In this document: one piece after another, positions 15,338 through 17,993 of the stretch | How positions within the stretch are numbered: the stretch's first letter is position 1 | Layout of the letters: each line of letters opens with the position of its first letter | Assembly (NCBI RefSeq): GCF_001746835.1 | Contig: NZ_CP016094.1 | Span: 124,001-188,000, forward strand | Source of the DNA: Lacunisphaera limnophila | GTDB taxonomy: Bacteria > Verrucomicrobiota > Verrucomicrobiia > Opitutales > Opitutaceae | Reading direction: 5' to 3' | DNA: 64,000 nt | Notes under the pieces: generated by a model | What the model saw: only the letters and a program-made list of their open reading frames with translations | Told to the model about the DNA's origin: nothing | Databases searched by the model: none | Made by a program: the position numbers and the translations under genes

Positions 15338-15904
15338 ATGAAAGCCGTCGACCGCTTCCTCCAGTCCTGGCGTGAACGCAAGGTGCGCGCGTGGCTGAAG
15401 CCCGGCGCCCGCGTCCTCGACGTCGGCTGCCACCAGGGCGAGTTCTTCGACCGCCTCGGCCCGGCGATCACCGACAGCGTCGGCCTCGATCCCCTCGCCC
15501 GGCCGCGCACCGCGGCCACCTTCACCCTGCGCGCCATCCCCTTCGCCGAGCCGCTCGACTACCCCGTCGGTCGCTTCGACGCCATCATCCTCCTCGCGAC
15601 CCTGGAACACATCCGCGACAAGGCCCCCCTCGCGCGCGAGGCCCGCCGCCTGCTCACCCCCGGCGGCCGCCTTATCATGACCGTCCCCTCCCCGCGCGTG
15701 GACGACATCGTCCACACCCTCGTCCGCCTCGGCCTCGCCGACGGCATGAGTCTCGAGGAACACCACGGCTTCAAGCCGGCGGACACCGACCCGATCTTCC
15801 GCGCGGGCGGGCTCGAGCTGGAACACCACTCGACCTTCCAGCTCGGCCTCAATCACCTGTTCGTTTTCCGGCGACCGGAAAACGAAGGATCAAGGGTCAA
15901 GTGA
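15338..15904 (+). CDS. Class I SAM-dependent methyltransferase
   Basis: A 188-residue protein with a Rossmann-type methyltransferase core: motif I RVLDVGCHQGEFF for SAM binding, a following acidic residue at SVGLDPLA, FDAIILLATLEHI as the post-II region and LTPGGRLIMTVPSP after it. The substrate is unknown; this subfamily includes small-molecule and glycan or lipid methyltransferases. The last residues (ENEGSRVK) run into a phrase-like repeat (AAGTGACAAGT) that continues into the gap before rsmE, so the natural C-terminus may have been altered by repeat insertion. Confidence 0.85.
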   Translation: MKAVDRFLQSWRERKVRAWLKPGARVLDVGCHQGEFFDRLGPAITDSVGLDPLARPRTAATFTLRAIPFAEPLDYPVGRFDAIILLATLEHIRDKAPLAREARRLLTPGGRLIMTVPSPRVDDIVHTLVRLGLADGMSLEEHHGFKPADTDPIFRAGGLELEHHSTFQLGLNHLFVFRRPENEGSRVK

Positions 15905-15994
15905 CAAGTATCAGGCCCGGCATGGTCGAGCCTCGATCCGCCTCCTGTCACTTGTTACTTGGCACTTGTTACTTCGCGACGTAATCGTCGCGTT

Positions 15995-16747
15995 ATGCCC
16001 GACTTCCGTGCCTACGCTCCCGATGTTCCCGCCGGCGCGGCGGAGATCCGGCTCGGCGCGGACGAGAGCCACCACCTCGTGACCGTCAACCGCTGCGGCC
16101 GCGGCGATCCCGTCACGGCCTTCGATGGCCACGGCCAGGAATGGCTCACCGAGTGCGTGGACCCGGCCAAGGCCGCCACCGTGCTCCGCGTGAAGGCAGC
16201 CCGGCCCGCCGCCACCCGCGCGTTTTCCCTCACCCTCGCCCAGGCCCTGCCCAAGGGCGCCACGATGGACGACATCGTCCGCCAGGCCACCGAGGTCGGC
16301 GCGGCCCGCCTCATCCCGCTGCTCAGCGAGCGCACTCAGGTTCACCTCGACGCGGATCGCGCCGACAAGAAAATCGAGAAATGGCGCACCACCGCCATCG
16401 AGGCCGCCAAACAATGCGGCAACCCCTGGCTGCCGGCCATCTCCCCGCTCCAATCCCTCGCCACCTTCCTCGCCGCGCCGCCGGAAAACGAGCTCCGGCT
16501 GATCGCCAGCCTGCACGCCGGGACGACCACCCTCAAAACCGCCCTTGCCACCTACGCGCGGAAGCACGGCCACGCCCCGCGCTCCGCCCTCTGGCTGGTC
16601 GGACCCGAGGGTGATTTCTCCCCGGCCGAGATGACCGCGGCCCTCACCGCCGGCTTCGTGCCGGTAACCCTCGGCCCGCTCGTCCTCCGCAGCGACACCG
16701 CCGCCCTCTACGCCCTGAGCATCCTGAGCCACGAACTGGGTGGCTGA
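15995..16747 (+). CDS. rsmE: 16S rRNA m3U1498 methyltransferase RsmE
   Basis: SPOUT-class enzyme that methylates N3 of U1498 in 16S rRNA. The 250-residue protein has the PUA-like N-terminal domain (LGADESHHLVTVNRCGRGDP) and the knotted C-terminal domain with LAQALPKGATMDDIVRQATE, the RLIPLLSERTQVH block, LVGPEGDFSPAEM and VTLGPLVLRSDTAA, all hallmarks of RsmE. I chose the ATG at 15995 because the in-frame upstream start at 15959 lies in repeat sequence. The stop codon is 5 bases from the left inverted repeat of the GxxExxY element. Confidence 0.95.
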   Translation: MPDFRAYAPDVPAGAAEIRLGADESHHLVTVNRCGRGDPVTAFDGHGQEWLTECVDPAKAATVLRVKAARPAATRAFSLTLAQALPKGATMDDIVRQATEVGAARLIPLLSERTQVHLDADRADKKIEKWRTTAIEAAKQCGNPWLPAISPLQSLATFLAAPPENELRLIASLHAGTTTLKTALATYARKHGHAPRSALWLVGPEGDFSPAEMTAALTAGFVPVTLGPLVLRSDTAALYALSILSHELGG

Positions 16748-16752
16748 ACCGG

Positions 16753-17198
16753 TTTCACGCAAAGCCGCCAAGACGCAAAGCAATGACGGAGAATGAAATC
16801 TCCCGGGCTGTGGTCGATGCGGCGTTCCAGCTGCATGTCGAACTTGGACCGGGCTTGCTCGAATCCGTCTATGAAACACTGCTGGCTTGCGAGCTTGAGC
16901 ACCGCGGATTCAAGGTTGTCCGCCAGCAACCCATCTCCTTTGAGCACCGCGGTATTCGATTTGACGAGGGTTTCCGTGCTGACCTGATCATAAATGACAA
17001 GGTCATCATCGAGCTCAAATCAGTCGAGGACTTGCATCCCTCGCACAAGAAACAGCTCAAAACTTACCTTAAGCTGACCGGCAAGAAGCTTGGATTACTG
17101 ATCAATTTTGGGGCACCATTGATTAAAGATGGCATCCACCGGGTCGTGTTGGGATTGCCTGACGCCTGATCTTTGCGTCTTGGCGGCTTTGCGTGAAA
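16753..17198. mobile_element. 446-bp element: GxxExxY gene within perfect 28-bp inverted repeats
   Basis: A 28-base sequence at 16753-16780 (starting TTTCACGCAAAGCCGCC) recurs as an exact reverse complement at 17171-17198. Between them lies only one gene, starting 2 bases inside the left repeat and ending 1 base before the right one. The unit is fitted between two convergent genes, 5 bases after the rsmE stop and 3 bases from the kdsA stop. No transposase is encoded and I see no target-site duplication, so mobility is inferred from the structure. Confidence 0.75.
16783..17169 (+). CDS. GxxExxY protein, putative PD-(D/E)XK nuclease
   Basis: A 128-residue protein with the defining motif GPGLLESVYE (G-x-x-E-x-x-Y) near residue 24 and a C-terminal block with a PD-(D/E)XK-like core: FRADLIINDKVIIELKSVE gives the metal-binding D and the E-x-K pair. 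Family members are small, of unknown function, and common in several copies in Verrucomicrobiota and Planctomycetota. The gene is less GC-rich than its neighbours and sits exactly inside 28-bp inverted repeats, which points to transfer as a cassette. Nuclease activity is a family-level prediction. It could take part in its own spread or in DNA repair or defence; nothing here decides. Confidence 0.9.
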   Translation: MTENEISRAVVDAAFQLHVELGPGLLESVYETLLACELEHRGFKVVRQQPISFEHRGIRFDEGFRADLIINDKVIIELKSVEDLHPSHKKQLKTYLKLTGKKLGLLINFGAPLIKDGIHRVVLGLPDA

Positions 17199-17201
17199 AA
17201 C

Positions 17202-17993
17202 TCAGCTCCGCGCAGCCTTCCACACCGCGACGCACGTCGCGATCAGCGCCGGCAGCTCAGCCAGCGGCACCATGTTGGGTCCGTCCGAGATCGCCTTGTC
17301 CGGGTCGGGATGCGTCTCGATGAAGAGTCCGTCGGCCCCCGCCCCCAGCGCGGCCTTCGCCAGCGGCGCCACAAATTCGCGTCGACCGCTGCTCTTGCCA
17401 CCGCCCGCCCCGGGCAGCTGCACGCTGTGCGTGGCGTCAAAGATCGCCGGATAGCCCAGCGCCTTCATCTGCGCGAAGCTGCGCATGTCCACGACGAGAT
17501 TCTGGTAGCCGAAGGTCGTGCCGCGTTCCGTCTGCCAGATCTCGGTGGCGCGGCCCTGCTTCAGCTTGCCCACCACGAATTCCATTTCCTGCGGCGAGAG
17601 AAACTGCCCCTTCTTCACGTTCACCACCGCGCCGGTCTTGGCCGCGGCGAGCAGCAGATCGGTCTGCCGGCAGAGGAAGGCGGGGATTTGCAGCACATCA
17701 ACCACCTTCGCCACCGGCGCGCACTGCGGCCGTTCATGGATATCGGTCAGGACCGGGAAACCGTACTCGCGCTTGATGAGCGCGAGCAGCCGCAGCCCTT
17801 CCTTCAACCCGGTGCCGCGGCCGCCCAGCGAGGTGCGGTTGGCTTTGTCGAACGAGCCCTTGAACACGATGTTCAGCTCGCGGTGTTTCTTCCCGAGCTT
17901 CACCAAGCCCTCCGCCACGCTCCGGCAGACCGCCTCGTTCTCCAAGGAACAAGGCCCGGCAATGAGGAGCAGCCGCTTGGGGTCGAAGAGCAT
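17202..17993 (-). CDS. kdsA: 3-deoxy-8-phosphooctulonate synthase KdsA
   Basis: Condenses arabinose 5-phosphate and phosphoenolpyruvate to KDO 8-phosphate, the first committed step to the lipopolysaccharide inner-core sugar KDO. The 263-residue length is usual. Characteristic parts are [74 protein letters not shown] and [17 protein letters not shown]. It lies 24 bases downstream of pyrG in the same direction, an arrangement seen in many Gram-negative bacteria. Its presence supports an outer membrane with lipopolysaccharide. The start is the ATG at 17993. Confidence 0.97.

Follow-up and report, generated by a model that had tools for sequence, protein, structure and literature searches.

GxxExxY genes and the inverted word arrays around them: a candidate pairing of a nuclease with dispersed DNA sites

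GxxExxY genes are associated with arrays of 7-bp words that flank them in inverted orientation, and the words vary together with the encoded protein. Arrays of such words also occur without a gene, and in the genomes compared the type of gene co-occurs with the type of word. These observations suggest that a nuclease and dispersed DNA sites of its own form a pair not recognised before. We think it rather likely that GxxExxY is a nuclease acting in trans on cognate dispersed word arrays and that the unit in the window (the whole 64,000-nucleotide stretch of DNA that was analysed) is one gene-bearing member of such a dispersed inverted-repeat family.

The GxxExxY unit and its relatives

The unit in the window consists of one gene between two arms (Table 1), with an arm layout of TTTCA-CGCAAAG-C-CGCCAAG-A-CGCAAAG in which the words are spaced 8 bp. 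A preliminary description of this DNA had read it as a minimal mobile cassette, and the anatomy that it gave is correct: the perfect inverted repeats are complementary at 28 of 28 positions, the gene starts two bases past the left arm and ends one base before the right arm, and gaps of 5 and 3 bases separate the unit from the ends of rsmE and kdsA, both intact. Nor is there a transposase, as it had also said, since the gene that fills the unit matched PF13366 and no transposase in profile searches. Within the window, no other copy of the 23-bp arm core was found at up to 3 mismatches (0.00 expected from 100 shuffles). The whole-genome search that the description proposed for the 28-base repeat did yield further copies, though mostly in pairs without the gene: the 4.2-Mb genome (G000), which has one GxxExxY gene, holds 9 extra arm sites at up to 3 mismatches (0 with a reversed-pattern control), of which 8 are by eye halves of apparently intergenic, gene-less inverted pairs and the ninth, at 2123259, has no visible partner. 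The window also contains one gene-less CACGGAT pair, whose arms are 75% complementary. Separately, the stretch before rsmE (15860-15973) contains a 12-bp perfect inverted repeat at 15860-15886 and another inverted repeat at 15891-15906 / 15946-15961 with a 14-bp tandem, TGTCACTTGTTACT; these are possibly another iterated-palindrome family.

Table 1. Features of the unit and its surroundings, in window positions
Feature	Position	Strand	Basis or remark
Left arm, TTTCA and three 7-bp words	16753..16780	+	sequence read
Left-arm words	CGCAAAG 16758-16764, CGCCAAG 16766-16772, CGCAAAG 16774-16780		period 8
GxxExxY gene, 128 aa	16783..17169	+	ORF translation, profile matches
Right arm, exact reverse complement of left arm	17171..17198	-	same three words on minus strand
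rsmE, intact flanking gene	15995..16747	+	name from preliminary description; start picked by eye
kdsA, intact flanking gene	17202..17993	-	name from preliminary description
CACGGAT inverted pair without gene, 69-nt loop	7789..7913	.	word type differs from that of resident gene

The protein is a clear member of the GxxExxY family and a putative PD-(D/E)XK nuclease, as had been proposed, with scores far above cut-off against both PF13366 (PDDEXK_3; 135.4 bits, cut-off 22, E 1.5e-39) and TIGR04256 GxxExxY (137.5 bits, cut-off 35, E 2.4e-40). It carries the PD-(D/E)XK signature as H18, GxxE27xxY30, D67, E77xK79 and Q91xxxY95; across 42 proteins H18, G24, E27, D67, E77 and K79 are invariant, and Y30, Q91 and Y95 are kept in at least 90%. 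The AlphaFold2 model (pLDDT 93.9, pTM 0.87) has a PD-(D/E)XK-like fold that VIA-align matched best to 4ic1 (SSO0001, which we take to be a Cas4; Z 9.3, rmsd 4.9 over 103 residues), then to the Spirosoma restriction-endonuclease-like protein 3ijm (Z 9.1), BamHI (Z 7.4) and Hjc resolvase (Z 7.1), where Z values of such size are evidence on fold alone. Foldseek returned nothing at E <= 0.001 (best 1.1e-3), and a PDB sequence search with the window protein matched no chain. The likeness to Cas4/RecB-type nucleases, for which QxxxY is a motif name, lies in this fold and in the ExK and QxxxY motifs. PADLOC gave weak matches only, with Cas4 the best, and Cas4 profile matches were likewise weak (E 0.0037-0.051), PF01930 (15 bits vs 22.7, E 0.027) and TIGR00372 (13.4 vs 65) both falling below cut-off. 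Cas4 has a four-cysteine Fe-S cluster; the 128-residue window protein has one cysteine and therefore no such site. The best reading of the sequence and the model is that GxxExxY would be a minimal Cas4/RecB-like PD-(D/E)XK nuclease. A passage of PMC8934634 mentions a GxxExxY annotation at a place that a different program had called as cas4.

To look at GxxExxY loci generally, we took them from the same family (PF13366 in 169 of 200 genomes), from the phylum (TIGR04256 in 163 of 288) and from named genomes (the best 80 loci of at least 579 relatives). Loci were sampled best score first except in a nine-genome set, so that the core of the family is over-represented. As the words differ between units, most arms escaped a search of relatives with the repeat of the window unit, and the loci were instead scored for inverted arms in general and for six-word arrays. 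With a Smith-Waterman score of at least 30, the two flanks matched in inverted orientation at 98 of 138 loci (family 28/33, named 47/76, phylum 23/29; 4 of 142 left out for short flanks); such a match was seen in 0 of 1051 controls with shifted positions and, for mismatched left/right pairs, in 104 of 1500. A six-word score of at least 36, with three words per arm, was reached at 130 of 202 loci (family 28/33, named 45/76, phylum 20/29, further copies 37/64; 4 of 206 left out) and in 2 of 773 shifted controls; removal of five duplicate or near-duplicate loci leaves 125/197. Among the 45 passing named loci, 43 were assigned to 13 phyla, with phylum taken from the record title, and when all listed matches of nine genomes were taken (70 matches, 67 loci), 40 of the 67 passed the six-word threshold. 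Repeats and gene thus belong together, as the preliminary description had held. It had also raised the case of GxxExxY genes that lack flanking repeats, which is true in part, as 72 of the 202 loci miss the threshold that the other 130 reach. The long PF13366 ORFs, seven in number (230-267 aa; L235-L237 and L242-L245, in genomes G239 and G416), are all below it and are probably a separate subfamily; two of them, L235 and L237, have two matches each.

The arms themselves are not uniform, and in some units, as read at L322 and L326, each side has a full palindrome in place of a single arm. We compared left with right arms at 83 loci of equal spacing, after leaving out five loci that duplicate or nearly duplicate others and those with flipped frames or unequal spacing, and found agreement at 1617/1743 in words, 174/308 in spacers and 213/730 outside the arms. 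Block-wise copying of a terminal repeat would not give words that agree more than spacers. A search for matched arms that enclose other cargo covered a small sample of 1.26 Mb and turned up 6 inverted pairs of arrays at distances of 250-1500 bp; of these, the window's own pair alone agreed in its words.

Covariation of word and protein

Across loci the common form of the word is CRCNNAN. For 115 proteins less than 80% identical, protein identity was correlated with word similarity (Mantel rho 0.42, 0/500 permutations) and with word spacing (rho 0.27, 0/500 permutations), and word similarity was 5.0 of 7 at 45-50% protein identity vs about 4.2 below 35%. A tree of 105 proteins requires 5 changes in the word's last letter vs 27.4 when shuffled, and 19, 25 and 16 changes at positions 2, 4 and 5 vs 37.8, 42.3 and 35.9, counts from a tree with few columns and many open forks in which co-inheritance adds to the word-protein signal. 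Ten flipped rows and rows more than 80% identical were left out of this tree, ACAGGAT word frames were corrected by hand before the count, and a truncated protein, L108 (13% filled), was kept. The window gene lies in a clade of 41 rows, mostly with period-8 words, that includes named rows from many phyla.

The same relation is seen at short distance. By tblastn, 16 loci are at least 75% identical to L203; CGCGGAT predominates in the arms of 15 of them, and the other, L325, has a CACGGAT palindrome on the right. The 14 loci below 75% have CACGGAT (7), CGCGGAT (3) or no such word within 75 bp (4). At the residue aligned to L203 K112, all 17 CGCGGAT-arm proteins have K (15) or R (2) and 7 of 9 CACGGAT-arm proteins have D (loci L306-L335, with L320 left out for its mixed arms). 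This position is a candidate recognition residue, confounded with clade. Close contrasts of this kind (CGCGGAT vs CACGGAT arms on proteins about 70% identical) make recognition and mobility directly testable, and the pairing of word and protein would supply a natural set of small nucleases that are candidates for sequence-specific action.

Paralogues within a genome mostly have their own words. The nine words called in G071 are all different, and the exceptions to one word per gene are two CGCAAAG genes in G164 and two CACAAAA genes in G110. Recognition of the word by GxxExxY is well supported by these data, and the protein would presumably bind the arrays itself.

Arrays without genes and what is dispersed

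Sampled DNA contained 12 palindromes without a gene in 400 kb of G071, which has 11 GxxExxY genes, 7 in 464 kb of the window's genome with its one gene (two of them with a common right arm) and 0 in 400 kb of G228, which has no GxxExxY. Read by eye, the G071 palindromes fall into four word types, and for each of these the genome has a gene-bearing unit; only one of the 7 in the window's genome is of the resident gene's word type. Array totals in G071 were 47 for CGCGGAT and 44 for CACTAAT, and both words were followed across 200 family genomes. For CGCGGAT, the median was 13 arrays in 15 genomes with the gene at 75% identity or above, 2 in 44 genomes with it at 60-75%, 1 in the 110 whose GxxExxY genes are all of other types and 0 in the 31 that lack GxxExxY; at least four arrays were present in 15/15, 31/110 and 0/31 of the first, third and last groups, for a cut at 75% that was set post hoc, the test at a 60% cut being not significant (p 0.12). 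For CACTAAT the rule was therefore fixed in advance: genomes with an L209-like gene at 60% identity or above should have more arrays beyond the gene's own two. Indeed, this prediction held (Mann-Whitney 9e-7, 200 family genomes), and at least four arrays were found in 12 of 23 genomes with the cognate gene, in 3 of the 146 whose GxxExxY is of another type and in 0 of the 31 that have no GxxExxY (Fisher 7e-10), p-values that overstate independence because genomes and proteins share ancestry and many genomes are drafts. Here the identity rule and the direction were preset, and the four-array summary and Fisher test were added afterwards.

The main complication for a pairing of nuclease and site is the orphan words: the window's genome has 34 CGCGGAT arrays, yet its only GxxExxY gene is of the CGCAAAG type. 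Similarly, the CACTAAT arrays of G011 (L376-L385) mostly stand as singlets and have in common a short tail outside the array, and the one GxxExxY found there (67% complete) has arms of another type (L021). In G053 the arms are shared and the loops unrelated in the copies read. A search for a clean empty site or target duplication found neither, the junctions of the nearest relatives being degenerate hairpins. With such loops, singlets and orphan words, and with this result, dispersal of the arrays stays an inferred step, and dispersal as whole palindromes does not follow from these copies. Two candidates for clean evidence of movement were set aside. The near-identical palindromes L253, L260 and L264 of G071 share their flanks too and seem to be parts of one longer repeat, and the 230-bp difference between L013 and L018 consists of repeated palindromic sequence beside the right arm and is no clean insertion.

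The positions and numbers of the arrays also bear on the possibility, unlikely in our judgement, that GxxExxY is a regulator or chromosome-organising protein, with the arms as its operator, the dispersed pairs as its regulon and no mobility. Such a protein would fit with the greater conservation of words than of spacers, with arm ends that are often about 10 bp or less from the start and stop codons, and with palindromes that lie wholly inside ORFs of at least 150 aa less often than chance (9 of 19 vs 722 of 800 random windows, with mechanical ORFs). It is less easily reconciled with nuclease residues that are invariant or nearly so over 42 proteins, or with 0 to 71 arrays of one word per genome within one family, which is unlike a stable regulon.

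The dispersed part looks to be the repeat, not the gene. The best match of a GxxExxY gene to a paralogue in its own genome has a median identity of 47%, reaching at least 80% in two and at least 90% in 0 of 66 copies, so the gene is unlike a spreading transposon. With the window protein as sole query, relatives were found on 0 of 50,697 phage records and 7 of 72,556 plasmid records, and these seven plasmids are predicted to be non-mobilizable throughout; an alignment search gave one viral contig. The perfect inverted repeats, the snug fit of the gene and the relatives in many phyla do resemble a minimal transposon or cassette of the ordinary kind with a nuclease as cargo, and we consider this very improbable: the gene is single-copy in the window's genome, near-identical copies are absent from the multi-copy genomes examined, the arms match by words and not as copied ends, and relatives on plasmids, phages and viral contigs are few. 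A simple transposon was rejected on the lack of a transposase and of near-identical copies. Of the mobile cassette first proposed, then, the bond between gene and repeat stands, whereas movement of the gene as a unit finds no support in the one gene in the genome, the 0/66 close paralogues and junction copies that look vertical.

These junction copies come from the 3' end of rsmE, where 12 junctions were readable, all by eye. Three are filled by the gene (G000, G113 and G198), three have a gene-less hairpin in its place (G208, G161 and G187), one has a right-arm remnant (G207) and five show no arm of this type; seven further kdsA-bearing genomes have no rsmE in reach. The gap is thus not occupied by the same gene in all relatives, a case that the preliminary description had considered, and the filled, gene-less and remnant forms coexist within one genus. 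In G198 the unit (L058) has reversed orientation, a partial gene duplicate and an adjoining gene-less hairpin, and an inversion between the arms is possible. DNA identity of the window gene to L049 and L058 is 69.5-71.6%, compared with 77.7-78.9% for kdsA, and the copies would fit vertical descent with patchy loss. Alternatively, a selfish endonuclease gene could home into pre-existing palindromes, its targets, and then filled and gene-less rsmE 3' ends with opposite gene orientations in one genus would be expected, as would the gene-less pair that the window's genome has (by eye) where L022, L031 and L037 have a gene. We regard homing as quite improbable, since 0/66 copies have a paralogue of at least 90% in their own genome despite tens of cognate arrays (G071), and the divergence of the junction genes is what vertical descent would give.

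GxxExxY units also recur at the same junctions across genera (L022, L031, L037 and L004; L023-L026, L030, L032, L039 and L041). One of these two junctions, which has only a gene-less pair in the window's genome (by eye), looks to us like parE-parC, and the other is presumably gatA-gatB.

A proposed nuclease-repeat pairing and known systems

In the explanation that we favour, the GxxExxY nuclease would recognise the 7-bp words iterated in both inverted arms, paralogues would mostly recognise their own words, and the same words would recur at other places in the chromosome, both as single arrays and as gene-less pairs. The gene would be kept inside one pair, and the nuclease would act in trans on its cognate arrays by analogy with RAYT/REPIN systems; nicking or cutting of the arrays could then lead to array copying or gene conversion. 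Cleavage of the arrays is presumed, and it may be what drives dispersal. A widespread protein family, to which the literature searched gives no role, would then have one, and a likely agent could be named for intergenic repeats in many bacterial phyla. A broader version, to which we give rather less than even weight, is that GxxExxY proteins are phylum-spanning nucleases, each dedicated to one iterated 7-bp word, that maintain and spread dispersed inverted-repeat families as a Cas4/RecB-fold counterpart of RAYT/REPIN and lie behind a large share of unexplained intergenic repeats (of the CACGGAG, CACAGAG, CACGGAT and CGCAAAG kinds).

PMC3116915 and PMC8266576, on RAYT/REPIN systems, describe repeat and enzyme as appearing to co-evolve and propose action in trans on the repeats. 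As there, inverted pairs of short repeats are dispersed in the chromosome, distinctive nuclease genes adjoin their repeats and the two seem to co-evolve. The enzyme there is single-copy, and here 0/66 copies have a paralogue of at least 90%, although in G164, and likewise in G110, two genes share a called word. The enzyme here is of the PD-(D/E)XK and theirs of the HUH Y1 type, the arms here have three iterated 7-bp words and theirs are one tagged stem-loop, and the gene here sits inside the inverted pair; the GTAG or CGTC tag of RAYT/REPIN repeats is absent from the ends of the 28-bp arm. With a different enzyme and different repeats, the unit is not a member of a RAYT/REPIN family. The palindromes could in principle still be REPINs moved by Y1/HUH transposases (RAYTs), with GxxExxY as a passenger, and Y1 transposase genes are indeed present in 12 of 12 genomes checked. 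However, an array lies within 700 bp at only 4 of 30 Y1 loci (from 51 listed Y1 matches) vs 36 of 44 GxxExxY loci (the poor G164 loci L223 and L228 being outside the 44), so that this comparison disfavours mobilisation of the arrays by RAYTs. G228 and G034 have Y1 genes without GxxExxY, and of these G228 has 0 palindromes in 400 kb and G034 has no CGCGGAT or CACTAAT arrays. As the words also covary with GxxExxY, we give the passenger explanation next to no weight.

A search of the open-licence PMC literature by name, repeat strings and theme found no link of GxxExxY to these repeats, the sole repeat-string match being an animal-development paper (PMC7044464). Passages on Geobacter genomes (PMC2996986, PMC2700814) and from a survey of palindromes (PMC3733652) describe many intergenic palindromic or iterated families and attribute them to no agent. 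The Geobacter consensus strings given in these passages are other sequences than the words here. Unlike the MITEs and multicopy intergenic sequences in such passages, the word types described here can be matched to nuclease clades.
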